From contig NZ_JAJLRA010000006.1 in the NCBI RefSeq assembly GCF_020991365.1, forward strand, positions 248,001 through 312,000: 64,000 bases of DNA, in the 5' to 3' direction. Origin of the DNA: Streptacidiphilus sp. ASG 303 (lineage in GTDB: Bacteria > Actinomycetota > Actinomycetes > Streptomycetales > Streptomycetaceae). The notes under the pieces were generated by a model, which was not told the DNA's origin, did no database searches, and was given only the letters and a program-made list of their open reading frames with translations. Shown one piece after another: positions 4,901-31,241 of the stretch. A program made the translations under genes and the position numbers. Position 1 is the stretch's first letter; each line of letters starts with the position of its first letter.

Positions 4901-6838
4901 TCAGACCAGGCTGTCCCGCCAGGCCTGGTGGAGGTCGGCGAAGCGGCCGGCGGAGCCGATCAGGTCGGCGGGGGTGCCGTCCTCGACGACGCGGCCCTGC
5001 TCCATGACCAGCACCCGGTCGGCGATCTCCACGGTGGAGAGCCGGTGGGCGATGATCACCGCCGTGCGGCCCGCCAGCACGGTGCGCATGGCCTCCTGGA
5101 CGGCCCGCTCGCCGGGCACGTCCAGCGACGAGGTGGCCTCGTCGAGGATGAGGACGGCCGGGTCGGCGAGCAGCGCGCGGGCGAAGGCGACCAGCTGCCG
5201 CTGGCCCGCCGAGATCCGTCCGCCGCGCTTGCGCACGTCGGTGTCGAAGCCCTCCGGCAGCGCGGCGACGAAGTCGTACGCTCCGATGGCCCGGGCGGCC
5301 TCCTCCACCTCCTCGCGGGTGGCCCCGGGCCGGCCGACGGCGATGTTGTCGGCGACCGTCCCGGAGAAGAGGAAGGACTCCTGGGTCACCATCACCACGC
5401 CGCGGCGCAGGTCGGGGGTGGAGAGCCGGCGCAGGTCCACGCCGTCCAGGGTGATCCGGCCGTCCGTGGGGTCGTGGAAGCGGGCCAGCAGCTTGGCGAG
5501 CGTGGACTTGCCCGCGCCGGTCGCGCCGACCACGGCGACCGTCTGCCCGGCGGGCAGCACCAGGTCGAAGCGGGGCAGCACCTCCTTGCCGTTCCGGTAG
5601 GCGAAGGAGACGCCCTCGAAGGCCACCTCGAGCCCCTTGGCCGACGCCTCCGGCCGCTCCGGCAGCCGCTCGGGCTCGGCGGGCTCGGCGACGGTCGGCT
5701 CGTGGGCCAGCAGGCCGGCGATCTTCTCCAGGGCCGCGGACGCCGACTGGTAGCTGTTGAGGAACATGGCCAGGTGGTCGATGGGGTCGAACAGCCGTCG
5801 CAGGTACAGCACGAAGGCGGCCAGCACGCCCAGCCGCAGGCTCCCGTCGGCGACCAGGTACGCGCCCCACAGCACCACGGCCGTGATCCACGCGTTGGCG
5901 GTGGCGCGGGAGGAGGCGACGAAGCGGGCCATCGCGAGCAGTCCGTCCGCGTTGGCCGTCGCGTACTCGGCGTTGACGACGCCGAACGCCTCGTCGTTGG
6001 CCTGCTCCCGGCGGAACGCCTGCACCGGCCGGATGCCGTTCATGGTCTCGGTGAAGCGGACGATCACCGTCGCCACGGCGGTGCGGGAGCGCCGGTACAC
6101 CGTGCGGGACCGGCGCCGGAAGGACCGGGTGAGCAGGTACACGGGCACGAAGGACGCCAGGGAGGCGAGGCCCAGGCGCCAGTCCATCACCAGCAGCAGC
6201 ACCGAGATGTAGGTGACCGACAGGGCGACCGAGAGCAGCTCCTGCAGGCCCTCGTTGAGGAGCTCCCGCAGGGCGTCCACGTCGCTGGTGGCGCGGGAGA
6301 TGATCCGGCCGGAGGTGTAGCGCTCGTGGAAGTCCAGGCTGAGCCGCTGGGCGTGCCGGAAGATGCGGCCGCGCAGGTCCAGCAGGACGTCCTGGTTGAT
6401 GCGGCCGGAGAGCCGGATGAAGGCCCGCTGGAGCAGGGTGCCCAGCAGGGCGCAGCCCAGGTAGGCGGCGGTGACGGCCACCAGCGGGCCGGAGTCGCTG
6501 CGGCGCAGCGCGGGGATGGCCCGGTCGATGGCGACCGACACCAGCAGCGGCCCGGCCTGGAGGGCGGCCTGCTGGACCAGGATCAGCAGCATGGCGACGG
6601 CGATCCGCCGCCGGTGGGGGCCCATCAGGCTGCGCAGCAGCGCGCGGGGGGCGCCCGGCGGGACGGGGATGTCCTCGTCCTCCCCGTGCGGGGGCCCGGC
6701 GTCGTCGGCGGCGATGCCGTCGGGGGTGTCCTCGGAGGTGCCGTCGGCGTGGGCCGGGGCCGCGGTCCCGGTGCCCGCGGGCTCCGGGCCGGGGCCGTCC
6801 CGCAGGGCGTCCGGCTCCGTCTCGGTGGTCGAGGTCAT
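4901..6838 (-). CDS. ABC exporter half-transporter, catalytic-site subunit
   Basis: The gene encodes 645 residues: an acidic, disordered N-terminus (about 75), a six-helix type I exporter membrane domain, and a C-terminal ATPase domain. The ATPase has Walker [10 protein letters not shown] and Walker [12 protein letters not shown] with the catalytic Glu present, but a non-canonical signature, ISAGQ, in place of LSGGQ. This is the pattern of one half of a heterodimeric exporter. The ATG at 6838 overlaps the stop codon of the upstream partner as ATGA, indicating translational coupling and equal production. A much longer open frame continues upstream, but the overlap and the partner's identity fix this start. 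The substrate cannot be told from sequence. Confidence 0.93.
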
Positions 6839-12997: not shown

Positions 12998-14224
12998 ATG
13001 CACCCGGGAAGCACCGCGCGGGGCGGGCGCACCGCCCTCGCCGCGGTCGGCGGGGTCCTGCTCGTGCTGGCCGCACTGGCGGGATGCCGACCCGCCGACC
13101 CCGTGCGCCCCTCCTCGGACGGCGCCGTCGCCGCCACCCCCGCGCCCCCGCGGGTCTCCCGCGCCGCCGTCACGGTCGTGCCGACCGACGGCGCCTCCGA
13201 CGTCGCGCCGACCGGGTCCGTCCGCGTCACCGCCGAGCGGGGGCGGCTGACCTCGGTCCGGCTGGCGGACGACGGCGGGCACACCGTCCCCGGCCACCTG
13301 GAGCCGGGCGGCGCCGCCTGGCTGCCCGACGCGCCGCTGGCGCTCTCCACCCGCTACACGGTGGACGCGACCGCCCGGGACGCCGAGGGCCTGGAGGCCG
13401 CCCGGCACGCCGCCTTCACCACCCTCGTGCCGAAGCACACCGCCGTCGCGTTCTTCACGCCCGAGGCCGGCTCGACGGTCGGCGTCGGCATGCCCGTCTC
13501 GCTGCGGTTCACCCGGCCGATCGCCGACCGGGCCGCGGTGGAGCGGGCGGTGCGGGTCACCGCGGACCCGCCCGTCCCGGTGCGGCTGCACTGGTTCGAC
13601 GGCACCCGCCTGGACTTCCGGCCCAAGTACTTCTGGAAGCCCGGCACCCGGGTGCTGCTGTCGCTGCGCCTGCGCGACCAGCGGGTCGCGCCGGGCGTGT
13701 ACGGGGTGCAGCGCAAGGACGTGCGGTTCACCGTCGGCCGCTCGCAGGTCTCCACCGTCGACGTCAGGGCCCGCACCATGACGGTGCGCCGCGACGGCGG
13801 CGTGCTGCGCACCCTGCCGATCTCGGCGGGCAGCCCGCAGCACCCCACCTACAACGGGTACCTGGTGGTGTCCGAGAAGTTCGCGGTGACCCGGATGAAC
13901 TCCCGGACCGTGGGCCTGGGCAGCGAGTACGACATCCCCGACGTGCCGCACGCCATGCGGCTGACCGGCTCCGGCACCTTCGTGCACGGCAACTACTGGG
14001 CCCCCCGCTCGGTCTTCGGTGCCGAGAACACCAGCCACGGCTGTGTGGGCCTCGCCGACACCAAGGGCGGCGGCGCCGACACCCCGGCCGGCTGGTTCTT
14101 CGCCCACTCGCTGATCGGCGACGTCGTCCGCGTGGAGGGCTCCGACGACCGCACGGTCGACCCGGCCAACGGGCTCAACGGCTGGAACCTCGCCTGGTCG
14201 CAGTGGAGCCCCCAGCCCCGCTGA
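12998..14224 (+). CDS. L,D-transpeptidase lipoprotein (YkuD domain)
   Basis: The 408-residue protein has a lipoprotein signal with lipobox LAGC (Cys about residue 29), a Thr/Pro-rich linker, two Ig-like domains of the type seen in mycobacterial LdtMt2 (about 45-250), and a C-terminal YkuD catalytic domain. The active-site motif SHGCVGL puts the catalytic Cys at residue 349, with the partner segment FVHGNYW just before. The family makes 3-3 (meso-DAP/LL-DAP) crosslinks in peptidoglycan outside the membrane. It is followed by a paralog in tandem. It is divergent from glgX, and the 237-base gap between them must hold both promoters. The window shows no other cell-wall genes beside the pair. Confidence 0.92.
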   Translation: MHPGSTARGGRTALAAVGGVLLVLAALAGCRPADPVRPSSDGAVAATPAPPRVSRAAVTVVPTDGASDVAPTGSVRVTAERGRLTSVRLADDGGHTVPGHLEPGGAAWLPDAPLALSTRYTVDATARDAEGLEAARHAAFTTLVPKHTAVAFFTPEAGSTVGVGMPVSLRFTRPIADRAAVERAVRVTADPPVPVRLHWFDGTRLDFRPKYFWKPGTRVLLSLRLRDQRVAPGVYGVQRKDVRFTVGRSQVSTVDVRARTMTVRRDGGVLRTLPISAGSPQHPTYNGYLVVSEKFAVTRMNSRTVGLGSEYDIPDVPHAMRLTGSGTFVHGNYWAPRSVFGAENTSHGCVGLADTKGGGADTPAGWFFAHSLIGDVVRVEGSDDRTVDPANGLNGWNLAWSQWSPQPR

Positions 14225-14398
14225 CCGCGCCCCCCTGCCGGGCCCCGCCCGCCCCGCGGCCGCCCGCGCCCTCGCTCCGGGGCCGCCGCTGCCTGCCGTT
14301 ATCCTCGGATGTCCAGCCGCGTGCAGGATCACGGCCCGGTGCAACCGGCCCGCCCCCCTGTGCGTGTAGTGAGGTGAAACCGGGAGGGGAGCACACAC

Positions 14399-15688
14399 GT
14401 GAAGCCGGAACAGGCGGCAGCCGCCGCGATACGCCCGAGCGCCGTACGAGGCAGGAACCGGGGCGCCGCGCGGGGTGCGCTCGCCCTGCTCCTCGGCCTC
14501 CTGCTGGCCCTCGTCACCGCCTGCAGCTCCGGCGGGTCGAAGTCCTCGGACGCGTCCGGGGGCAAGGGCGGCGCCGACAAGGGCGCCAGCCAGGCCGACA
14601 AGGCCGCCGCGCAGAAGACCTCCGACGCCGTGATCTCCATCACGCCCAAGGACGGCGCCTCCAACGTCCCGACCCGCGACGCCCTCAAGGTCACCGTCGC
14701 CAAGGGGAAGCTCACCTCGGTCAAGGTCACCTCGGAGTCCGGCGCGGCCGTCGCCGGCGCCCTCGCCGCCGACGGCAGCAGCTGGACGCCGGCCGACTCC
14801 CTGAACACCGGCGTCAAGTACCGGGTCGAGGCGCACGCCAAGGACGCCAAGAACCTGGAGGCGGTGGAGAACGCCACCTTCACCACGCTGACGCCCGCCA
14901 ACACCTTCATCGGCTACTTCAACACCGAGCAGGGGCAGACCTACGGCGTCGGCATGATCGTCTCGCTGCGGTTCAACAAGCCGATCGCCAACCGCAAGGA
15001 CGTCCTCGGCCACATCAAGGTGACCGCGAACCCCGCGGTCGACGTGGTCGGCCACTGGGTCGACGGCCAGCGGCTGGACTTCCGCCCCAAGGACTACTGG
15101 GCGCCCGGCACCCAGGTCACCCTGGGCCTGCGGCTCAACGGCGTCCAGGGCTCCCCGGGCGTCTACGGCGTGCAGTCCAAGGACGTGAAGTTCTCCATCG
15201 GCCGCTCGCAGGTCAGCCTGGTGGACGCCGAGAAGCACACCATGACGGTCCGCAAGAACGGCGCCGTGCTCCGGACCATCCCGATCTCCGCCGGGTCGCC
15301 GCAGAACACCACCTACAACGGCAGGATGGTGATCTCCGAGAAGTACACCGAGACCCGCATGAACGGCGACTCGGTCGGCTTCAAGGGCGAGTACGACATC
15401 AAGGACGTGCCGCACGCCATGCGGCTGACCACCTCCGGCACCTTCGTGCACGGCAACTACTGGGGCAGGCCGGACATCTTCGGCGCCGAGAACACCAGCC
15501 ACGGCTGCGTGGGCCTGCGCGACGCCAAGGGGGCGAAGGACCCGGGGACCCCGGGCGCCTGGTTCTTCTCCCACTCGCTGATCGGCGACGTGGTCGAGGT
15601 GGTCCACTCGCACGACAGGACCGTCGACCCGTTCAACGGCATCAACGGCTGGAACATGGACTGGTCGCAGTGGACGGCCGGCAGCTGA
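14399..15688 (+). CDS. L,D-transpeptidase lipoprotein (YkuD domain), second copy
   Basis: The 429-residue protein is a clear paralog of the preceding gene, with closely parallel sequence from the Ig-like domains onward. The signal ends in lipobox VTAC, followed by a Ser/Gly/Lys-rich linker. The catalytic motif SHGCVGL has its Cys at residue 370. The GTG start has a good ribosome site (GGGAGGGGA). The 174-base gap from the first copy and a TATCCT-like hexamer near 14300 suggest its own promoter. A 14-bp hairpin terminator follows. The tandem pair probably arose by duplication and may give conditional or partly redundant crosslinking. Confidence 0.92.
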   Translation: MKPEQAAAAAIRPSAVRGRNRGAARGALALLLGLLLALVTACSSGGSKSSDASGGKGGADKGASQADKAAAQKTSDAVISITPKDGASNVPTRDALKVTVAKGKLTSVKVTSESGAAVAGALAADGSSWTPADSLNTGVKYRVEAHAKDAKNLEAVENATFTTLTPANTFIGYFNTEQGQTYGVGMIVSLRFNKPIANRKDVLGHIKVTANPAVDVVGHWVDGQRLDFRPKDYWAPGTQVTLGLRLNGVQGSPGVYGVQSKDVKFSIGRSQVSLVDAEKHTMTVRKNGAVLRTIPISAGSPQNTTYNGRMVISEKYTETRMNGDSVGFKGEYDIKDVPHAMRLTTSGTFVHGNYWGRPDIFGAENTSHGCVGLRDAKGAKDPGTPGAWFFSHSLIGDVVEVVHSHDRTVDPFNGINGWNMDWSQWTAGS

Positions 15689-19670: not shown

Positions 19671-19694
19671 AACCGGCTGATTCCCGGGCCGGTT
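19671..19694. promoter_or_regulatory. Inverted repeat AACCGGC-N10-GCCGGTT upstream of the helicase operon
   Basis: Perfect 7-bp arms at 19671-19677 and 19688-19694, 60 bases before the likely GTG of the pseudokinase-helicase gene and 51 bases after the mannanase stop. It could be an operator for the operon or a weak terminator for the mannanase gene. The 10-nt spacing, about one helix turn plus, favours a dimer-binding site. Confidence 0.4.
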
Positions 19695-19753
19695 TGCGCT
19701 ATGTATGGACGAGCCGCAGTGCGAGCGGGGACCTGGGGGCGAGCGGAGGCGCA

Positions 19754-22700
19754 GTGGAAGCGGCGGAGACGGACCGGCTGGTCGAGTACTTCTTCTGCGA
19801 CCCCCAGACCGCCCTGGGGCGCTACGGCACACCCGCCGGACGGAACGTCGCCGAGTGCGGCCACGAGCTGATCTCCGGTGCGCTGCACCGGTACGACCTC
19901 ACCGACGGCGGCCAGTTCCCGGTGACGCTCCAGCTCTACCAGGGACTCTCCAACGTCGCGGGCCACCTGTGGGAACAGGAGGTCCGCGTGCTGCTGCGCG
20001 CGGCGGCCCTGCGGCACCCGGCACTCCCGGAGATCGTCACCGGCGGCTACCGGGATGCCGAGGCGACCCGTTCCAAGGGCTTCGATGTCAACGGATTCGC
20101 GTACGTGGTCACCAAGGGCGCTGTCGACAGCCTTGCCGACGGCGGCCTCCTGGACGACCTCCGGGGACAGCACGCGGTGGCGGTCAGGCAGTTCTTCTTC
20201 CTTGCGGACGCACTGTCCGTACTGCACGGACAGAAGATCGTGCACCGGAACCTGTGGCCCGGCAGCATCGACGTCCACCAGGACACCTCCATGCCCGTCG
20301 GTCCCGAGCGCCTGCAGCTGCGACTCTCCCGCTTCGAGATGAGCGCCCTCATCGGCAACCTGCTGCGGGCGACCGAGATGGACACCGAGCACGCCGCCGA
20401 GCAGGTCACCCGCCTCCTGCTCGGGCAGGACACCGAGGCGTTGGCCTACTGCGCCCCGGAGAGGCTCGCCTACCTCTTCCCGGTCCAGGGGACCGAGCCC
20501 GCCGACCACGCCAGTTCCGACGTCTTCAGCCTGGGCGCCACCGTCGCCGAGTGGTTCCTCCCCGAGAGGCCCGGTCCGGCGGCTCCCTCCGCCCCGGGAA
20601 GCGACCACCTGCTCGCCTGGGCGCGCAACCGGCACACGGCGCTGCGGGAAGCCCTCGCCGGCCACCCCGACCTTCCCGGCCCCCTGCGGACGCTCCTCAC
20701 CGACATGCTCGCCCACCACCACCGCGAACGGCCCACCAGCTACGAGGTCGTGGAGCGGATCAGCAGCAACTACGAGGAGATATCGGGCCACTGGGCCCAG
20801 GTCTCGGATGTCCAGCTGCCCTACCTGATGGCCTTCCTCCCCGCCGAGTCCCGCCACACGCTGTACCACTGGGGATGGCTGACCCATGACCCGGAGTCCG
20901 AGGAAGGGCACCGGGAGCTCGCCGAGCTCATCGAGCAGGACCTGTGCGGGGCGCGCCTGGTCCACGCGCCCCACGGGGCCGTGCCCTACGTCGTTCCGGG
21001 GGACAAGCAGACCAAGCGGGAGGCCCAGCTGCTCCTGATCGGGGCGCGGGCGGCCTGGTTCTGCCAGCGCTACCGGCCGTTCAGTGCGCTCGGCACCGCG
21101 CTGGGCCCGCCCCGCGAGGACACCCTGGTGATCAAGTACACGGTGTCCCTCGACAGCTCCGCAGGCCGTTCGATTCTGGACGACGTCGCCCGGACCCGCT
21201 TCCACCGCACCATCCCCTCGGTCGAGGCCGTCGCCTACAACATCCACCCGGCGGAGTTCGCCAGGGCGCAGGCCGGCCGGCCCAAGTGGACCCCGCTCGT
21301 CGATGCGATCGCGCGGGCGGTGGTCGACTCGCCGACCGACCTGGTCTACGAGCAGGCCTTCGACTGGCTGCTGAGCTACCAGGAGGTGGAACTCCAGGCC
21401 CGTGAGTACGCCTACGAGGTCGACAAGGAGGACAGCGGAGCCCGCTACCTGACGCTGCGGCTGGACGCGGCGCGCGACGACGCCCGCAGGCACCGCAACG
21501 CCATGCTGACCTACTACTGCGAGGACCCGGCGCTCCGGCCGCCCCTCGGCGACTTCTTCGCCTCCTTCGCCTCCGAGGAGGGGGGCGACATCGAGGTCCT
21601 GGACGACCGCAACGGTGCTCCCCGGCGCCATCGCGACCGCCGGGTCCTCGTCAGCCTCGACGACCAGCTGGGCGAGCAGGCCATCCGGGTCCGCCTGCAC
21701 TCCGACAGCGGCAGGCCCCCGGACCGGGGCTGGATCCGTCCCGCGGGGGATCTCGGGAGCTGGGTCGCCTACCGCCGCCAGCTGCACGCGCGCTGGAAGC
21801 TCCTGGGAAACAAGGTGCTCCTCCAGCAGCTCCAGAGCCCGACGACGATCAAGGGGCTTCCGGAGCGCTGGAAGGACGCGGGCACCGGCCTGGTGGGGGG
21901 CGAGGTGGTGACCGACATGCTGGTGTCGCAGCCGTTCTTCGCCCTCCAGGGGCCCCCCGGCACCGGCAAGACCGAGATGACCGCGAGAGCGGTCATCGCC
22001 TACCTCCGGCAGGAGCCCGCTGCCCGGGTGATGGTCTCGGCCCAGTCCAACTGGGCCCTGGACAACCTGGCCGCCCGGATCCTGGAGCGGCTCGCCCCGG
22101 AGGACGAGCAGCAGGGGGAGGCCGGTGGGAAGGACGCGCCGGAGAACCGTCCGCTCGACGCGCTCACCGTGGGCGACATCATCGCGCTGCGTGTCACCAC
22201 GAGTTCCTCCGCCGACCGCGTGGACGACCGCCTGCGCCCCTTCCGTCCCGCAGAGCTCGCCGAGGCGCGTTCCGAGGCCCTCCAGAAGTACGCCGTCAGG
22301 GCGCAGAAGGAGGCCGGCCGGGACAGCCGGGAGCTGCAGCTGCTCAAGGAGTGGGAGAAGGTGGCGAAGGGGGCCGTGCCCGAACTCACGGACCGCATCC
22401 GGCGCTCCGCCAACCTCGTCTTCGCGACCTGCTCGTCCGCCGACCCGGAGCACATGTCGGTCACCGGCAACGAGGAGCCGTTCGACTGGGTGCTGATCGA
22501 GGAGGCTGCCAAGGCGTGGCCCACCGAGATCGCCATCCCCCTCGCCCAGGGCCTGCGATGGACCCTGATCGGCGATCACCACCAGCTCCCGGCCCACCGC
22601 AGACAGGACGTCGAACGCTTCCTGCACGACTCCGCCGACCACCCCGACCCCGCTCTGGCCCTGCACGGTTCCCGCAGTGCCGAGTACCTGCGCGTCTTCA

Positions 22701-23443
22701 ACATGTTCGGCAGCCTCTTCGACCGGCCGGCCGCCGGCACCGACCGGGCCGACGGCTCCCTGTCCCGGCCCGTACGCACGCTCAGCACGCAGTTCCGGAT
22801 GAACCGGCCCATCGGGAACCTGATCAGCCGGGTCTTCTACCCTGATCCCGAGGACCCCGGGGGCGAGGGGCTCATCCGCACCGGGAAGGCCGACGAGCCG
22901 CACGGCTACGGTGCGCCGGAATGGCTGGGCGACGCGTCGCTCGTCTGGCTGGACACGCACGCCCTGACCGGCTGCGAGGACGAGCCCGCCTGGAAGAACC
23001 GCGGTGAGGTCGAGGTCGTGTCCGAGCTGGTGTCCCGGCTCAGCCCGCGTCCCCAGCCGCGTCGCGATGGCGGGGGCCACGACGCCCTGGCCGTGCTCGC
23101 CCCGTACCGGCAGCAGACCGATCTGCTGCGCGCCCGAAGCGATTTGGCCCCTTTCGTCCACACCGTCCACGCCTACCAGGGGCGGGAGGCCGAGGCGGTC
23201 GTCGTCTCCCTGGTCCGGGACCGCAACCGGAGCGAGGCGAAGGACCAGCCGTGGAAGAACCTGGGCCACCTGGTCCAGCCCGATCTGGTCAACGTGATGT
23301 GCTCGCGCGCTCGGCGACTTCTGGTCATGGTCGGCGACCTCGAGCATTTCGCGGGCAGCGGGGTGGAGTTCTGGGCGCAGGTCTGCGATGCGTTCCGGCA
23401 GTACGGCCTGGTCCTGCCGGCCGGGCGGGCGTTCGGTGACTGA
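19754..23443 (+). CDS. Pseudokinase-SF1 (Upf1/Dna2-like) helicase fusion
   Basis: The protein is 1,229 residues from GTG 19754 (GGAGG just upstream); an in-frame TTG at 19694 would add 20. Residues about 20-320 follow a Ser/Thr kinase fold: a C-helix (WEQEV), YCAPERL (APE motif) and SSDVFSLGATVAEWF are kept. The VAIK Lys is replaced (VTLQ), HRD reads HRN (about 164-166) and the DFG position reads SRFE, so it is probably a pseudokinase. A 400-residue unassigned middle leads to an SF1 helicase: Walker A GPPGTGKTE (about 733), Walker B-like LIEEAAK (about 914), GDHHQLP, STQFRMNRP (about 1011), VHAYQGREAEAV (about 1139) and NVMCSRAR (about 1180). It is first in a three-gene operon. The likely role is nucleic-acid remodelling controlled by the kinase-like domain. 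Confidence 0.85.
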   Translation: MEAAETDRLVEYFFCDPQTALGRYGTPAGRNVAECGHELISGALHRYDLTDGGQFPVTLQLYQGLSNVAGHLWEQEVRVLLRAAALRHPALPEIVTGGYRDAEATRSKGFDVNGFAYVVTKGAVDSLADGGLLDDLRGQHAVAVRQFFFLADALSVLHGQKIVHRNLWPGSIDVHQDTSMPVGPERLQLRLSRFEMSALIGNLLRATEMDTEHAAEQVTRLLLGQDTEALAYCAPERLAYLFPVQGTEPADHASSDVFSLGATVAEWFLPERPGPAAPSAPGSDHLLAWARNRHTALREALAGHPDLPGPLRTLLTDMLAHHHRERPTSYEVVERISSNYEEISGHWAQVSDVQLPYLMAFLPAESRHTLYHWGWLTHDPESEEGHRELAELIEQDLCGARLVHAPHGAVPYVVPGDKQTKREAQLLLIGARAAWFCQRYRPFSALGTALGPPREDTLVIKYTVSLDSSAGRSILDDVARTRFHRTIPSVEAVAYNIHPAEFARAQAGRPKWTPLVDAIARAVVDSPTDLVYEQAFDWLLSYQEVELQAREYAYEVDKEDSGARYLTLRLDAARDDARRHRNAMLTYYCEDPALRPPLGDFFASFASEEGGDIEVLDDRNGAPRRHRDRRVLVSLDDQLGEQAIRVRLHSDSGRPPDRGWIRPAGDLGSWVAYRRQLHARWKLLGNKVLLQQLQSPTTIKGLPERWKDAGTGLVGGEVVTDMLVSQPFFALQGPPGTGKTEMTARAVIAYLRQEPAARVMVSAQSNWALDNLAARILERLAPEDEQQGEAGGKDAPENRPLDALTVGDIIALRVTTSSSADRVDDRLRPFRPAELAEARSEALQKYAVRAQKEAGRDSRELQLLKEWEKVAKGAVPELTDRIRRSANLVFATCSSADPEHMSVTGNEEPFDWVLIEEAAKAWPTEIAIPLAQGLRWTLIGDHHQLPAHRRQDVERFLHDSADHPDPALALHGSRSAEYLRVFNMFGSLFDRPAAGTDRADGSLSRPVRTLSTQFRMNRPIGNLISRVFYPDPEDPGGEGLIRTGKADEPHGYGAPEWLGDASLVWLDTHALTGCEDEPAWKNRGEVEVVSELVSRLSPRPQPRRDGGGHDALAVLAPYRQQTDLLRARSDLAPFVHTVHAYQGREAEAVVVSLVRDRNRSEAKDQPWKNLGHLVQPDLVNVMCSRARRLLVMVGDLEHFAGSGVEFWAQVCDAFRQYGLVLPAGRAFGD

Positions 23444-23497
23444 GCGCCGCGGCACGGCAGGTCCGATCGGCGCACGGGGGACGGGGGAGGAGCACGG

Positions 23498-26400
23498 ATG
23501 GGCAACCTGACGGTCAGTGTGCGGTGCGTGGTGGTGCCGGTCAGGGTCACGCTGGGCTACGGCCGGTTCGTCTCCCCGATCGAACAGATCGTCCTGAAGA
23601 AGCTCACGCTCCACGAGGCCGACGGCCTCGACGAGCCGGCCGTCTACGGAGCCGACGAACTGGCCCGCAGCCTCGGCCTCGGTCAGCGCCTCACCCTCGA
23701 CATCATCTCCGACCTGTGGCACAAGAACTACATCACCCTGGACCTCGCCCGGGGCGTGGTACGGGCCGCGGACCACGTCCGGCGCCGCGCGGCGCAGGGG
23801 ACGCTGCACGAACTGGAGGGCGCCGAGGTCCACAGCGTCGAGTACCCCCTGATGGTGGACTCCCTGACCGGCACCCTCATGCCGGTCAACGGCTCCCCCC
23901 GACCGCAGGAGGGCCACCACGTCGTCCCGGTGCTCGACCGCTGGGCCACGGACGACACGTTCACCCAGGCCGAGCTGGCCGACGCCCTCCACGAGCACCT
24001 GCGCCAGGAGCGCCGCCAGGAGCGCCGCCAGGGCGCACAGGGCCGGGAGCAGCGCGTGCTCACCGCCCAGCTCGTCCCCGCCGACCTCCGTCCGCCGCCG
24101 CAGAACCGCTGGCTGCCCCTGAGCATCACCGTGGGGTGGGACAACGACGCCCAGAAGATCCGCCTCTTCTCCGACGACCCGGCATTTCCCACCGAGAGCC
24201 GGCTGCGCGCCCTCAGCCGGATCGCCGAGCTGCTGGAGACCCTGCCGGAGAACGCCTTCGCCACCCAGGTACGCCGTGCCGCCAACAGCCAGTTCGTCGA
24301 GGCCCCGTCCCTGGAGACGGCCCTGGAGCGACTGGAGGAGGCGGCGGCCGGGGTCTCCGGATCCGCCCCCGGGACACAGCATGCCCGGCACAACGAACTC
24401 GCCAGGCAGAGCCGCCAGGTGACGGAACTGCTTCGGCTGCGGGTCGCCTCCGAGGTCCGCACCCGCGTCGTGGTCGACCCGGACGACCACCGCGAGACCG
24501 TCGTCGAGCTGATCGAACGCGCGCGCCGGCAGATCGTCCTCGCCTGCCCCTCCGTCGGCTACGAGCCCCTCTACGCCTTCTCCGAGCACCTGCGCCAGGC
24601 GCTGGCCAGGGGCGTCCACGTTGTCCTGCTGTGGGGGGAGAGGCACGGGGACGAGGTCTCGGAGAAGGTGCGCAACCTCCTCAACGACCTGCGGCGGGCG
24701 GGCCGCGGCAAGCTCGTATGGACCTACCGTCCCAGCCGGACCCATGCCTGCCTGGCGGTCTGCGACGACCGGGCCGCGCTGGTGACGGGCCACCGCTTCC
24801 TGAGCCCTCCACCGCCCCGGCACGGCAGGGAGGGCCGCGACCGGCAGAACCGCGCCCTGCAGGTCGGTGTGCGGGTCGAGGCCCCGACTTCCGGCCCCTG
24901 CGATCCCGTGGAAGGGCTCCTGCGCTGGGCCAGGACCGCAGTGCCCGACTACTCGGTCGGCCAGAAGGTCCACATCCGGCACAGCGACTTCACGGAGGCC
25001 GCGGGTACCGAAGGCGCGAGCACCGCGTCCGGTGGGGAGCCGCCCGGTGACGCAGCGAGGCAGGGGGAGGCCGAGGAGGAGCGGTCCTCCTCCTGGGAGC
25101 CCCTGCTTCCCGGGCTCCCCGCCGAACCCGCCGTGCCCGCCGACGGCGCGCCGCCCTCTGCGGCGGTGACGGCGGTGTGGGGCCAGGCATGGGTCGAGTA
25201 TGCGGCCGCCCTGCGCCGACAGCTCGAGGCCCGCACACTGCCGTGGGCCATGGTCCAGGTGGACGGGGCGCACCGTGAGACCCTGTGGCAGGCACTGCGC
25301 CACAGCCGCTCCCGACTGCTGCTGTCGGGTGCCCGGGTCGGCCCGGACGCCTTCGACTTCCGCGCGTCCGCGGCCCTGGAGAAGCTGCTCCGGGCGGGTG
25401 TCCGGGTGACCGTCGCCCACGGCCGGCCCACCGAGTCGACCGGCGTCGCCGAAGGCCCCCGCCGCCTGCTGGCCGGCCTGAAGGCGGCCTTCGCCGACCG
25501 TGGTCTCCAGGTCGTCCAGCAGGCGACCAACGCCCGTCTGATGGTGAGCGACGACGAGGCGCTGGTCGGCAGCTTCGACCTGCTCTCCCTCGGCAGCCAG
25601 GCTCCCGGTCTCTCCCACAAGCGTCCCAGCGAGATCGGTCTCAGGCTGATCGACCGGCGCACAGCCGACCAGCTGGTCGATGCCGTGCACGGTGCCCCGC
25701 AGCGCGACGCGCCGGATTCGGTGGAGAGCAGCCCGCCCACGGCCGCCAAGGCCGAGGCGGCGGCACCGGACATGGCCGGCCGCGCCCAGCGCCTGCTCAA
25801 CACCGTGGCGGAGGAGGCCCCGTCCGGAGACCCGGCCGCCGTTGCGGCACTGGCCCGTGACTGCGTCGAGCAGCTCGCAACCCAGGGGGGCGACGCCGTG
25901 TGGGCCCTGCTCGACACCCTGAGGCGGCACGACGCCTACCGCCCGGTGCTGCGTCCGGCGGCCGCGTACGCGAGCGGACGGTTCGCCGGGAGCCCCGAGG
26001 CCCGGACCTGGCGCCGCTGGCTGATGCGCGACTGCTGGGAGCGCGGCATGTTCGTCGAGGCCGTGGTGCTGCGTGCAGCCATCCCCGGGGACCACACCCG
26101 CCCCCGCCTGCCGCTGTCGCTGGTGGCGGCCGCTCGCGGCGGCGCCCACTTCGACGAAGCGGTGCTGGAGGCCGCCCTCGACGTCGAGGACAGCCTGAAG
26201 CGGTCCAGACCCTGGGCCGGTGCCGAGGCCGCCGCCCTGGTCTCGCTGTGTGTGGCGGAGATCCTGACCGCGGAACGGGGAGATGCCGCCGCGGAGGCCC
26301 TGGACCTGCTGGAGCAGTACCTCGCCGAACCCTGGAGGGCCCTCTCCCGGCTCGGCCGGGACCACTGGGGCGACAGCGCCCTCGGCCCGGTGCCCGTGGC

Positions 26401-26962
26401 CGAGATCCGGGCCCAGGCGGACCGCGCCCGGCACCGGACGGAGGTCGACCGGGCGTGGGAGGAACTGTCCCGGCGCCACGGCCGCGCGGCCCAGGTCACC
26501 TTCCGCTTCCAGTCCGGCACCCGCACCCATGCCCGGCTCTTCGGCCCCGACGGCGACTTCGGCTGCCTCAAGGGCCCGATCGACGCCAGGGACGGCGAAG
26601 CCGTACGGCAGTGGCTGGCCGCCCATCCGGCCTCCGACGTCGACCGGGTCCTGGACCGTGCCACCCGTTCGGTGGGGGCCACGCACGAGCTTCGGCTGAT
26701 GGCCAACAACCAGCGTCTCAACTTCGTCGCCAGGCTCGTCGAGGTCGCCGAGGGCGCCGCCGACCTTGTGGCGCTCCTGAACGCGGACAGCCCGGCAGGC
26801 ACCCGCAGGCTTGCCGGGCACGCTCCCGTGGCCCGCGCGCTGTCCTCGCTGCTGCCCCGGGTGGTTGCCGCGGCGGAGGACCTGGACGGCCCCGAGCCGC
26901 TGCTCGCCCGGGACGTGCTCGCCCGACTGTCCGACATCGCCGCCTGGGGGGGATCCATATGA
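23498..26962 (+). CDS. Large protein with winged-helix and two degenerate phospholipase-D-like motifs
   Basis: The protein is 1,154 residues, with ATG preceded by GGGGGAGGA. A winged-helix-like domain lies near residues 28-85. Two PLD-superfamily-like blocks follow at about 325-435 and 590-700. The first motif reads H-A-C-x4-D then G (HACLAVCD near 415), so the catalytic Lys is Cys and the GSxN Ser and Asn are lost. The second reads NARLMVSD then VGSFD, so His and Lys are both replaced. Catalysis of the usual HKD kind is therefore unlikely. The remaining ~400 residues look like all-helical repeats. Its stop overlaps the next start (ATGA) and it follows the helicase by 54 bases, so the three products are probably made together. 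PLD-like proteins beside helicases occur in restriction and defence loci, but this one matches no named system that I know. Confidence 0.8.
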   Translation: MGNLTVSVRCVVVPVRVTLGYGRFVSPIEQIVLKKLTLHEADGLDEPAVYGADELARSLGLGQRLTLDIISDLWHKNYITLDLARGVVRAADHVRRRAAQGTLHELEGAEVHSVEYPLMVDSLTGTLMPVNGSPRPQEGHHVVPVLDRWATDDTFTQAELADALHEHLRQERRQERRQGAQGREQRVLTAQLVPADLRPPPQNRWLPLSITVGWDNDAQKIRLFSDDPAFPTESRLRALSRIAELLETLPENAFATQVRRAANSQFVEAPSLETALERLEEAAAGVSGSAPGTQHARHNELARQSRQVTELLRLRVASEVRTRVVVDPDDHRETVVELIERARRQIVLACPSVGYEPLYAFSEHLRQALARGVHVVLLWGERHGDEVSEKVRNLLNDLRRAGRGKLVWTYRPSRTHACLAVCDDRAALVTGHRFLSPPPPRHGREGRDRQNRALQVGVRVEAPTSGPCDPVEGLLRWARTAVPDYSVGQKVHIRHSDFTEAAGTEGASTASGGEPPGDAARQGEAEEERSSSWEPLLPGLPAEPAVPADGAPPSAAVTAVWGQAWVEYAAALRRQLEARTLPWAMVQVDGAHRETLWQALRHSRSRLLLSGARVGPDAFDFRASAALEKLLRAGVRVTVAHGRPTESTGVAEGPRRLLAGLKAAFADRGLQVVQQATNARLMVSDDEALVGSFDLLSLGSQAPGLSHKRPSEIGLRLIDRRTADQLVDAVHGAPQRDAPDSVESSPPTAAKAEAAAPDMAGRAQRLLNTVAEEAPSGDPAAVAALARDCVEQLATQGGDAVWALLDTLRRHDAYRPVLRPAAAYASGRFAGSPEARTWRRWLMRDCWERGMFVEAVVLRAAIPGDHTRPRLPLSLVAAARGGAHFDEAVLEAALDVEDSLKRSRPWAGAEAAALVSLCVAEILTAERGDAAAEALDLLEQYLAEPWRALSRLGRDHWGDSALGPVPVAEIRAQADRARHRTEVDRAWEELSRRHGRAAQVTFRFQSGTRTHARLFGPDGDFGCLKGPIDARDGEAVRQWLAAHPASDVDRVLDRATRSVGATHELRLMANNQRLNFVARLVEVAEGAADLVALLNADSPAGTRRLAGHAPVARALSSLLPRVVAAAEDLDGPEPLLARDVLARLSDIAAWGGSI

Positions 26963-29547
26963 CCGCAGCGCAGGAGCAGCCCGAGGTCCCCGCCGTCCCC
27001 CGCGACCTGGTGGCCCACTGGGCCGGGCGATGGCGCTACCCGTCCTTGCTGGCCCTGCTCAGCCGCACGGGCGAGGATGCGGCGCTCGGAGCCGACGCGG
27101 CGGCGGACGCGGTCGCCGACGGACTTGCTCGCCCGATGGGGCTCCCCGAGCACGCGGCATCGGCGCTCATCGAGCGGGGCGAGTTCGCAGCGGCCCGGCA
27201 GGTGCCCGGCTGGGTTGACGCGGAGGGCGCCGTCGAGGCGGCCGTCGCCGAGGCCAGGGCCCGGCTCGGGCGCCGTCTCGACCGGTTGGCCCGCCGGGCG
27301 GTCCGCGCCGGCCTCGCCGACCGACCACCGGAGGGGCTGGAGCCGCTGCTGGAGGTCCGGTCGGCGGACGCCGACGCGGTCCTCGCCGACTGGCAGGGGC
27401 GCCTGGAGCAGGCCGAGAGGCGCCGGGTCGCCGAACTGGATGACCGGCTCTGCGCTGCGGTGGAGGAGGACGGCTGGACCTCGGGCGGGACCGACGCGCC
27501 CGGTCAGGCCTGCGCCGACTGGGAGCAGGCCGTACGGAACTGCCTGCGCCAGGGTGAACTCGCCGCCGCCGAAAGGCTGCTGGACGCAGGTCCCTCCCCG
27601 GATGCCGTCGGCGGACCGCTCACCGTGCCCGGCCAGCGGATCTGGCCGTGGGCGGACGTGCCCGTGCGCGAGGTTTTGGCGTGGTACGCCGGCTCGGTGG
27701 GCGCCCGCCCGGAGTTCGGCAGCCAGTGGCTGCCGGACGACGAGTCCGGCACCGCGCTGGTGGCGGCACTCGCAGAGCTGCACCTGAACGTGTCGGCCGA
27801 GACTGTGCGCGGCTTCGCCAACGCCCTCGACACCCATCTCGGAGCCGACGCCGCCCGGCACCAGGTGGAGGAGTACGGAGGCGGATTCGTCACCTGGCTC
27901 TCGGGTGTCGCCGACTACCAGCGCATCCCGCAACTCGCCCTGCCTCGCAAGCTCCGGCTGTACGTGGGCCCGGACGGCTGGTCGCCCGAGGTCCCGGAGA
28001 AGGACCGGCCGGCGGCCTGGCTGGTTCTGCGCATGCAGGCCACGGCCCGGCAGCGGGAGCTCGTCCCGCCGGGCGTGGCGGTTCTCGACGTCCGTACGGT
28101 GCTCCAGCTCGCCGCCCCGGACCGCCACGGCCGGGCCACCTCACGAGGCCACCGCACGGTCAACCTGCTGCGGTCCATGGGCCGGGGCCTGCGGGTCGTG
28201 GACATCGTCGGCCGGCAGCCGCTGCCGGACGACCGCTCCGGTCCCGCCGCCCATCCGCACGAGGAGCACGAGGACCTCGCCTGGTGGCTGGACCTGCTCG
28301 GCGTCCGTTCCACCGATGCCGCCGTCGACATGCTCCTGTACGACACCGACGGCCATCCTGTGGCGCTGCGGGCCGCGCTGGCAGGGCTGATACCGGACAC
28401 CGACCGGCCCTACGAGCTGACGTCCGAGGCGCTGGAGGAGTGGCGCGCCGACCCCGACGCCCAGGCGGCCTTCCACGACACGGTGGTGGAGCAGTCGTTC
28501 CTCGGCTCCGACCGTGAGGCGGCCGCTGCACTGCGCTCGGTCCTGCTGCTCGTCCGCGGTGAGCCCGACCTGGCCCTGTCGCCCGAGGACGTCGCGGCGG
28601 TCCTCGGTCCGTCCGCGTCCACGGCGGGAAGCCTGCCGATGGAACTGGGTGCCGCCCTCTCCCGGGTCGCGGCCGCCGGCTTCCTGCGCCAGGACCCGGG
28701 GAGCGGCCGGTACCGCTGGAACGGGCCCGGTCTGGCGGCCCTCCTCACCGGCCCCGACCCGCGTCGTGTCGAGTCCCTCCTCGACCAGGACCTGCGGGAG
28801 CTCTACGACCGTCGGGACCGGAGCGAGGAGAGCGCGGTGCTCGGCCTGCTGGAGGTGCGCGAGTCGTACGCGCACACGAGGGTCAACCGGCTGGCCGGAG
28901 CGGCCGACGCCATCAGGCGCACGCTGGAGCGCGACGACCTCTCGGAGGGGGGGCGCGCCAACCTGCACGGTGCACTGCGGGCCGTGGAGGAGAGCCAGCT
29001 GGCGGAGGCGCGGGCCCGGGACCCCAAGCGCCTGTACGACGACCTGAACACCAAGGAGCCTCTGGACCTGCGGTCCGAACTCGAGAGCCACTGCCTGGGA
29101 CTGCTGGCCGAGGCGCCGCCCGGCGTCGCCGTCGACTTCGTCCCGGGCACCGACCGGGAGGTGGTCGTCTGGGCCAGCCATCAGCTCCTCAAGATGGCTG
29201 TGGGCAACCTCCTCGACAACGCGCTCCGTGAGGTCGGGACCGACGGAAGGATCCGGGTCACCCTCGGCCTCCTGCCGCGCGGACGCGGGGGAGCCGGCAG
29301 CCCCGTCGCCCGGATCGACGTGGAGGACAGCGGGCCGGGGGTGGCCGAGTGCTGGCTGCCCTTCCTCAACGGGCTGGTGGGCGGCCCTCCGCCGACCGCG
29401 CCTAAGGGCAGCGGCCGGGGGGTCGCCTTCGCGCGGAACTTCATCGTGGACCACAACGGCACCCTCCGGTTCCTGGGGCGCTCGCACGAGCTCCGCGGAG
29501 CCCACGTGCGCATCGAACTGCCGGTCACCGGGGCCCCGGCCGGCTGA
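26959..29547 (+). CDS. Helical protein with C-terminal GHKL (histidine-kinase-like) ATPase domain
   Basis: The 862-residue protein starts at an ATG inside the preceding stop (ATGA). The N-terminal ~530 residues are mostly helical and unrecognised. A winged-helix-like segment lies at about 530-600, and a helical pair at about 630-690 contains ESYAHTRVNRLAGA, whose His639 sits where a dimerisation/phosphotransfer helix would have one. The end is a clear GHKL ATPase: N box MAVGNLLDNALREVG (about 745), DVEDSGPGV (about 787) and GSGRGVAFARNFIVDHNG (about 816). It is cytoplasmic with no membrane helix. The convergent neighbour has a receiver domain, so phosphotransfer between the two is a natural hypothesis. 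GHKL proteins without kinase activity also exist, and the H639 role is unproven. Confidence 0.8.
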   Translation: MTAAQEQPEVPAVPRDLVAHWAGRWRYPSLLALLSRTGEDAALGADAAADAVADGLARPMGLPEHAASALIERGEFAAARQVPGWVDAEGAVEAAVAEARARLGRRLDRLARRAVRAGLADRPPEGLEPLLEVRSADADAVLADWQGRLEQAERRRVAELDDRLCAAVEEDGWTSGGTDAPGQACADWEQAVRNCLRQGELAAAERLLDAGPSPDAVGGPLTVPGQRIWPWADVPVREVLAWYAGSVGARPEFGSQWLPDDESGTALVAALAELHLNVSAETVRGFANALDTHLGADAARHQVEEYGGGFVTWLSGVADYQRIPQLALPRKLRLYVGPDGWSPEVPEKDRPAAWLVLRMQATARQRELVPPGVAVLDVRTVLQLAAPDRHGRATSRGHRTVNLLRSMGRGLRVVDIVGRQPLPDDRSGPAAHPHEEHEDLAWWLDLLGVRSTDAAVDMLLYDTDGHPVALRAALAGLIPDTDRPYELTSEALEEWRADPDAQAAFHDTVVEQSFLGSDREAAAALRSVLLLVRGEPDLALSPEDVAAVLGPSASTAGSLPMELGAALSRVAAAGFLRQDPGSGRYRWNGPGLAALLTGPDPRRVESLLDQDLRELYDRRDRSEESAVLGLLEVRESYAHTRVNRLAGAADAIRRTLERDDLSEGGRANLHGALRAVEESQLAEARARDPKRLYDDLNTKEPLDLRSELESHCLGLLAEAPPGVAVDFVPGTDREVVVWASHQLLKMAVGNLLDNALREVGTDGRIRVTLGLLPRGRGGAGSPVARIDVEDSGPGVAECWLPFLNGLVGGPPPTAPKGSGRGVAFARNFIVDHNGTLRFLGRSHELRGAHVRIELPVTGAPAG

Positions 29548-29549
29548 GA

Positions 29550-30554
29550 TCAGCCCGGGCCCAGCATGCGGTCGACCGCCTCCCGGACGTGGAGGCTGTC
29601 GAAGGTGCCGTCCGTCCGGTCGGCCTTCGTGCAGATCCCGGACAGCCCGAAGCGCTCGGTGAGGTGCCGGTAGTTCTGCTCGACGTCGCCGCTCAGGAAG
29701 TACGCGGTGATGAGGATCCTCGGGATCCTGCGCTTCTGGAGGTCCATCAGGGCGTGGAAGCCGTGGTTGTCGTCGTTGCGCGGGGTCAGGTGGCGGTCGA
29801 CCAGGGCACCGTGGAACTGGGGCGGATCGCCGGCCATGAGCCGGTGGTACTCGTCCAGGTTTCTGACCGTGGTGATGTCGCAGTCCCCGAACAGGGTCTC
29901 CAGCAGCCGGCACATCTGCTCGTCGTCCTCGACGATCAGCAGCCGCCGCCGTGCCCTGGCCCTCCGCCCCGGGTAAAGGGCGTCCGCGCGCCCCACGGCC
30001 GGGTCGTGTCCGAACCGGTCCGCGAACACGGCCCAGCCCTCCACCTCCACACCCTGCCGGAACAGCGCCGACACGGCGTCCACCAGCTGCCGCCGTGCCC
30101 TGACCGCCGCGTTCCAGTGCCTGTCCTCGACCAGGTGGTGCACCTGGAGCGGATCCCCGCGCCACATCGCGAGCAGGCGGGCCACCTCGCCGGTGTCCGG
30201 TGCTCCTCCCAGGGCCGCGACCCGGCCCGGGAATTCGAGCACGTCCAGGCGGAGGAGGTCCTTCGGCAGCCGGTAGCCGCTCGAAGCCGACCTGGGGATC
30301 TCGACCCCGTGCCTCCTGAGGACCGCGTTCACCTTGCCGACATGGGTGTACACCGCGCCGGAGGACCCCCGGCGCGGCAGCATGTCCCTGATGCTCTCGC
30401 AGGACACCAGTTGCCCCTGCATGAAGAGCAGCCGCAGCAGGATGGCCGCTCCCACCCCGACGAGCGGCGTCCGCCCCCCGGCGGAGCTCTCCACGACCAG
30501 TTCACCGAGCGCGCTGACGTACGGCCTGTCCTGCTCCGGAACCCCGTCCCCCAT
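29550..30554 (-). CDS. SARP-like regulator with C-terminal receiver domain (wHTH-BTAD-REC)
   Basis: The protein is 334 residues. Residues about 10-85 form an OmpR/SARP-type winged helix (LGELVVES, then LLRLLFMQGQLVSCESI and VYTHVGKVNAVLRRHGVEI). Residues about 90-195 resemble the BTAD helical domain of SARPs (ARLLAMWRGDPLQ, then WNAAVRARRQLVDAVSALF). Residues about 205-334 are a CheY-like receiver with all key residues: VEDD, the phospho-acceptor Asp in ALVDRHL, Thr in LITAYF and Lys in CTKAD. Receivers normally come first, so this order is inverted. The stop codon is two bases from the GHKL gene's stop on the opposite strand. It probably regulates the helicase-PLD-GHKL operon or itself, and a direct repeat of SARP-box geometry lies about 240 bp upstream. 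Confidence 0.8.
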   Translation of the reverse strand: MGDGVPEQDRPYVSALGELVVESSAGGRTPLVGVGAAILLRLLFMQGQLVSCESIRDMLPRRGSSGAVYTHVGKVNAVLRRHGVEIPRSASSGYRLPKDLLRLDVLEFPGRVAALGGAPDTGEVARLLAMWRGDPLQVHHLVEDRHWNAAVRARRQLVDAVSALFRQGVEVEGWAVFADRFGHDPAVGRADALYPGRRARARRRLLIVEDDEQMCRLLETLFGDCDITTVRNLDEYHRLMAGDPPQFHGALVDRHLTPRNDDNHGFHALMDLQKRRIPRILITAYFLSGDVEQNYRHLTERFGLSGICTKADRTDGTFDSLHVREAVDRMLGPG

Positions 30555-30953: not shown

Positions 30954-31241
30954 ATGCCCACCACGTCCGTAAAGACCTGTGCCGCCGTCGGCACCGGCTC
31001 CGTCACCGCCCACGTCGCCGGCCTTTCCCCGCTCCAGGCCCTCGCCGTCGGCATCGCCGTCCTGGCCGCCGCCGTGCTGCTCAAGCTGCTCGTCCTGGAG
31101 TGGTTCTCCCGGAAGGGCGAGGGAGTGCGCAGCGACGTGCTGAAGTTCGCCTCCATGCTGTTCCTCGGCCGGGAGGCCGCCTCCGCCCCCGACGTGCCGG
31201 CGTCCCGGAAGCGCAGAGCACGCAGGCGCCGCCCCAGGTGA
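30954..31241 (+). CDS. Small single-helix membrane protein
   Basis: The 95-residue protein starts at an ATG eight bases after AGGAG. One hydrophobic helix spans about residues 25-48 (ALAVGIAVLAAAVLLKLLVL), followed by a basic C-terminal tail rich in Arg. I recognise no family. It has its own good ribosome site and ends before a strong palindrome, so it is probably a monocistronic gene. Its short upstream region contains the CTGAACC repeats, so it may belong to the same regulatory unit as the divergent SARP-like gene. Confidence 0.6.
   Translation: MPTTSVKTCAAVGTGSVTAHVAGLSPLQALAVGIAVLAAAVLLKLLVLEWFSRKGEGVRSDVLKFASMLFLGREAASAPDVPASRKRRARRRRPR

Follow-up and report, generated by a model that had tools for sequence, protein, structure and literature searches.

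The four-gene locus in the window, a stretch of 64,000 nucleotides from Streptacidiphilus sp. ASG 303, is best read as a variant of Mokosh type I, neither a wholly new system nor an ordinary Mokosh. Profile matches identify its first two genes as the MkoA and MkoB of Mokosh type I, and they are accompanied by a histidine-kinase-like GHKL protein (gene 3) and a receiver-bearing regulator (gene 4). We see about an even chance that this is a conflict system derived from Mokosh type I, the ancestral enzymatic output having been lost and two-component signalling having taken its place.

Genes 1 and 2 are separated by a 54-bp gap, genes 2 and 3 share an ATGA overlap, and genes 3 and 4 are convergent with 2 bp between their stops (Table 1). 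An ORF check found all four reading frames with the lengths and junctions that an earlier note on this DNA had given them, and a codon-usage gene finder independently chose exactly these four.

Table 1. Coordinates of features in the window and in related loci.
Feature	Position	Strand	Remark
TTTGCGCTATGTATGGAC, promoter or regulator-site candidate	window 19693-19710	+	also in Streptomyces sp. TRM49041, where its spacing to mkoA is similar
Gene 1, MkoA-like, 1229 aa	window 19754-23443	+	pseudokinase (HRN, no DFG) and SF1 Upf1/IGHMBP2-type helicase
Gene 2, MkoB-like, 1154 aa	window 23498-26962	+	degenerate double PLD and C-terminal extension
Gene 3 (P0003), histidine-kinase-like GHKL protein, 862 aa	window 26959-29547	+	helical N-terminal region, putative DHp hairpin, C-terminal HATPase_c
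H639 codon, candidate phosphoacceptor histidine	window 28873-28875	+	conserved in 5/5 regulator-bearing loci, absent in 6/6 STAND-WD40 loci
Gene 4 (P0004), regulator, 334 aa	window 29550-30554	-	N-terminal region wHTH/BTAD-like by eye, C-terminal receiver
D253 codon, candidate phosphoacceptor aspartate	window 29796-29798	-	invariant in 5/5 regulators
L131 regulator	L131:3788-5005	+	convergent receiver gene, as in other regulator loci
STAND-WD40 gene	L034:612-4742		before mkoA
STAND-WD40 gene	L065:872-4816		before mkoA
STAND-WD40 gene	L087:1314-4901		before mkoA
STAND-WD40 gene	L088:15011-18829		before mkoA
STAND-WD40 gene	L130:1168-5121		before mkoA
STAND-WD40 gene	L035/L092		before mkoA

The Mokosh core genes and their catalytic motifs

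Mokosh type I, as Millman and colleagues are said to have described it in 2022, consists of MkoA and MkoB. Classical members differ in the catalytic HKD of the Mokosh PLD domain. Searched with the PADLOC Mokosh type I models (PDLC03920, PDLC03922), gene 1 matches MkoA over nearly its full length (residues 47-1223; 829.7 bits, E=1.3e-249) and gene 2 matches MkoB over residues 2-729 (428 bits, E=2.5e-128), with a C-terminal extension of about residues 730-1154 outside the coverage of the MkoB model. A relation to a phage-defence system, as the earlier note had proposed, is thus borne out. In Pfam, gene 1 matches AAA_11 and AAA_12; the kinase and PLD matches in genes 1 and 2 are sub-threshold only, as expected because these domains are degenerate. 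The MkoA and MkoC helicases have been classed as SF1_Upf1 (PMC10925250). Mokosh was described in work on Asgard archaea as degrading foreign transcripts (PMC11291487), and a 2026 review lists its mechanism as uncharacterised (PMC12926258).

Inspection of the motifs agrees with the earlier view that the kinase and PLD motifs are degenerate while those of the helicase, GHKL and receiver domains are intact. The MkoA helicase is complete (Walker A GPPGTGKT with K739; EEAA with E916/E917), and the kinase region is recognisable with its catalytic residues lost, HRD having become HRN (N166) and DFG being absent. HxKx4D was not found in the window MkoB, and HxK is present in neither PLD half (H416-x-C418; N678-x-R680). 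With both HKD motifs lost, the usual nuclease effector is missing. Going by these residues, the nuclease and the kinase of the window look dead, and there is no obvious candidate for a killing effector within or adjoining the locus. The locus therefore resembles Mokosh type I in its two core genes in the same order, its near full-length MkoA, its MkoB match and its Upf1-type helicase, but departs from it in the degenerate kinase and PLD motifs, in an MkoB of 1154 aa compared with about 465 in Streptomycetales loci with intact motifs, and in the added histidine-kinase-like and receiver genes, which lie outside the PADLOC Mokosh models.

In the MkoA clade to which the window belongs (see below), the kinase HRD/DFG motifs are lost in the MkoA inspected, HRD reading HRN in 7/7 aligned proteins, all of which retain the helicase motifs, and HKD is retained only by locus L131 among five MkoB tested. 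Four other MkoA of the same order (L068, L069, L071, L074) have an intact kinase with HRD and DFG, and HKD is kept in the MkoB tested from this group (L069, L070, L071, L074). In another group (L066, L067, L073) the MkoA kinase motifs are lost, and HKD is absent from the two MkoB checked there (L067 and L073). Loss of the kinase motifs and loss of the PLD HKD thus tend to coincide among the Mokosh-I-type loci L066-L075, which suggests that both activities work as a pair. Separately, a transposase, IS1182-like by eye, lies between mkoA and mkoB in one locus of the clade (L033:10995-12656 (-), genome G049); the operon of its near-twin L032 is uninterrupted.

Co-occurrence and inheritance of the four genes

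Gene 3 was recovered at full length from 11 loci (G030, G049, G078, G100, G164, G437, G489, G941, G1022, Streptomyces sp. TRM49041 and the window), those of G078 and G1022 being partial matches in the searches whose full length was read from the fetched loci. In 11/11 it is immediately preceded by MkoA and a long MkoB, which rules out genes 3 and 4 as passengers. The fetched stretches of 10 other Mokosh-I-type MkoA loci of the same order hold no gene 3, and in several of these loci MkoB is short, at about 465 aa. A search of 199 genomes that started from MkoA gave three matches in the studied clade (G000, G100, G164), and gene 3 is present in each of the three. At full length the gene is rare, occurring in 6/394 genomes of the order and in single genomes of two other families, a tally in which few candidates were scored per genome so that some members may be missed. 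Plasmid or phage carriage was considered and rejected, as the gene 3 protein has no match in plasmids; MkoA has only partial helicase-region homologues there, at <60% identity.

The 11 loci form one clade in an MkoA tree (IQ-TREE, 21 rows; support 100/100), and this clade divides into two sister groups. One (window, L031, L032, L033, L131; support 100/99) has a convergent receiver gene in 5/5 loci. The other (L034, L035, L065, L087, L088, L130; support 100/98) lacks the receiver regulator in 6/6 loci and instead has a gene for a STAND-type ATPase with WD40 repeats before mkoA in every one, usually abutting it or overlapping it by a few bases. Each group's extra gene was sought in the fetched stretches of the other and was absent. 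The earlier proposal that the four genes belong together and co-occur elsewhere is thus upheld, by gene 3 behind MkoA-MkoB in all 11 loci and by the regulator in five; the STAND-WD40 architecture of the sister group did not figure in it.

The STAND-WD40 assignment comes from Pfam on four proteins and from profile matches for L035 and L130. At the N-terminus, caspase-like H-G and C motifs are invariant in the four proteins aligned. Pfam and PDB searches gave no confirmation of a caspase domain, and the likeness to caspases rests on these HG and C motifs only. PADLOC, run on three of the proteins, returned nothing beyond weak matches to an ATPase model. A reverse-strand gene after the GHKL gene in L034 was considered and proved to encode an unrelated HTH protein. 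The locus of L131 (G1022) is followed by a gene whose product is, by eye, TIR-like/deoxyribosyltransferase-like and carries S1-type repeats, while a vWA-type gene is transcribed divergently from mkoA (the coordinates given for this observation are L131:2243-3600 (-) and L131:14958-16016 (+)); further out is a NarL-like gene whose receiver is degenerate.

Comparison of the window with Streptomyces sp. TRM49041 gives dN/dS values of 0.17 for mkoA, 0.31 for mkoB, 0.30 for gene 3 and 0.38 for gene 4, so all four genes are under purifying selection. In the same comparison, dS of the four genes (0.41-0.46) equals that of the neighbouring serine dehydratase (0.40) and glyA (0.42), and the TRM49041 locus lies at the same site with the same downstream neighbours. 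Given the above, the locus was inherited together with its neighbours there and is not freshly inserted, which leaves the suggestion in the earlier note that it occupies an insertion point weak.

The histidine-kinase-like protein, the regulator and a possible relay

Gene 3 matches Pfam HATPase_c above the cut-off (E=1.3e-11), and its ATP-binding boxes are intact (N754; DSGPG 790-794; GSGRG 817-821). Against the PDB, its profile matched histidine kinases, ZraS and CckA among them, far better than gyrase. Ahead of the ATPase domain is H639-x3-N643. A helix modelled at residues 621-657 holds H639, and together with a second helix (663-686) it resembles a DHp hairpin, in a low-confidence part of the model (pLDDT about 50-73). 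Overall model quality is low (pLDDT 43), conservation across the DHp region is weak, and a Pfam search gave no profile match to HisKA. Across the five regulator loci the motif reads HTRVN, HTMVN, HYNGN twice and HQADN, a notable retention because these loci represent three lineages sharing about 30% identity. In the six STAND-WD40 loci the histidine is absent from this position, mostly in a tryptophan context; the contrast in histidine and regulator is one evolutionary split, and the counts are therefore not independent, although histidine and regulator both persist across deep divergence. The PDB matches and H-x3-N together identify gene 3 as histidine-kinase-like, where it had been recorded simply as a GHKL ATPase. 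Wider GHKL matches, at E of about 1e-15 to 1e-22, cover the HATPase region only and were taken as unrelated histidine kinases. The kinase gene of L131 appears to be frameshifted within the ATPase domain (about 5000-5400 (-)), through sequencing error or decay.

The receiver residues of gene 4 (D210/D211, D253, T283, K310) are conserved across the five regulator loci. Among the PDB matches that Foldseek listed for the gene 4 model, all are receiver domains or proteins that carry one (best E 2e-3, prob 1.0); the Pfam match to Response_reg, at E=0.022, is below the cut-off. Gene 4 had been called a SARP-receiver regulator, and of that name the receiver half holds, given the residues and the Foldseek matches. 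The AfsR/SARP identity of the N-terminal half was a by-eye resemblance that Pfam, PDB and plasmid searches did not support: none of the five regulators matches BTAD or Trans_reg_C in Pfam at E<=0.05, and Pfam thus lends no support to DNA binding by this half.

Upstream of mkoA, the element TTTGCGCTATGTATGGAC keeps 15/18 bases in Streptomyces sp. TRM49041 (L031), where the upstream DNA has otherwise diverged, and it is the sole match in the window, against 0.01 expected. It is absent from the three more distant regulator-bearing loci. This conserved element, the regulator's position as a separate convergent gene and the strong MkoA and MkoB matches are what an ordinary Mokosh type I would offer, in which MkoA and MkoB alone defend and the kinase and regulator merely time expression of the operon. 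We think this unlikely: both HKD motifs are lost in the window MkoB, and the kinase gene, which shares an ATGA overlap with mkoB, persists in six loci that have neither the regulator nor the histidine, so it is more than an expression switch.

That same retention of gene 3 where phosphoacceptor histidine and receiver are lacking would fit a structural ATPase, clamp- or chaperone-like, within an MkoAB machine, the receiver then being a phosphate-independent switch. Kaur et al. 2021 (PMC8195603) propose that receivers independent of a kinase act as switches in conflict systems. Such a role for the window locus seems improbable, since gyrase is a poorer match to the HATPase domain than histidine kinases are, and loci with both genes preserve H-x3-N and the phosphorylation residues of the receiver.

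Under the two-component reading, the MkoA helicase and its MkoB partner would recognise or remodel foreign nucleic acid, and this recognition would switch on the gene 3 histidine kinase. The kinase would autophosphorylate at H639 and hand the phosphate to D253 of the regulator, which might then alter transcription of its own operon or of distant genes that execute defence. The anatomy of the window locus suggests that it raises an alarm via a classical signalling relay without cutting the invader directly. The loss of kinase and PLD catalysis, the retention of the helicase and the swap of the downstream module all point to the helicase pair as the sensor. In the sister group the same MkoA-MkoB core appears to drive the STAND-WD40 protein with its caspase-like motifs as a swapped output module. 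A broader and more tentative reading, which we hold to be rather less than evenly probable, is that a MkoA-MkoB sensor core with dead effectors works as a plug-in alarm whose outputs can be exchanged: a transcription regulator reached by phosphorelay in one group, the STAND-WD40 protein in the other. Immunity would then be signalled via a canonical two-component relay. Gene 3 would connect the core to these outputs, a role proposed mainly because of the regulator/STAND-WD40 swap. Histidine-to-aspartate phosphotransfer and the regulon would provide a tractable readout for what the helicase pair senses, and two-component signalling would be joined to bacterial immunity in directly testable form.

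Relation to other conflict systems

The locus had been put forward as an undescribed system fitting no named one. That does not hold for genes 1 and 2, which are MkoA and MkoB. Genes 3 and 4 are assigned to a defence system by neither PADLOC nor NCBIfam. Our literature search, thin on subscription journals and with the founding Mokosh paper outside it, found no account of Mokosh genes partnered by a histidine kinase, a receiver or a STAND-WD40 protein. DISARM and BREX, with which the locus had been compared, are not its nearest relatives; PADLOC gave only weak DrmC and PglW kinase-region matches, and Mokosh type I is closer. DISARM shares with the window a helicase and a PLD-fold protein, and the PLD half matches DrmC weakly (E=1.5e-7), but MkoB is a far better match, and neither a methyltransferase nor DrmA/DrmB is among the genes called and scanned around the locus. 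In BREX and BREX-related loci (PMC12839542) a minimal histidine kinase is likewise attached to a defence locus; there the kinase and a wHTH are fused to a Schlafen-family RNase, whereas in the window a gene of its own, placed after MkoAB, encodes the kinase, which has a receiver regulator to itself. The STAND/caspase conflict systems known from multicellular bacteria resemble the sister group in its STAND-WD40 protein with caspase-like motifs, and they too include receivers (PMC7159879, PMC8195603). The window has no STAND protein, and no Mokosh core was found in the consulted parts of those two papers.

A host regulatory or nucleic-acid stress system using a Mokosh-like helicase pair is very unlikely: it would suit the lack of an effector gene in the window locus and the vertical inheritance at the same site in the window genome and Streptomyces sp. 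TRM49041, yet the locus is rare and patchy in the order, is kin to a named defence system and has a sister clade whose STAND-WD40 protein is an architecture typical of conflict systems.

Two further observations concern the surroundings of the locus. A tandem pair of Ig-like/YkuD L,D-transpeptidase genes lies at window 12998-15688. Beside the locus, a hydrophobic ORF of 95 aa (window 30954-31241 (+)) without a Pfam match is kept in L031, with 75% identity over 72 aa.
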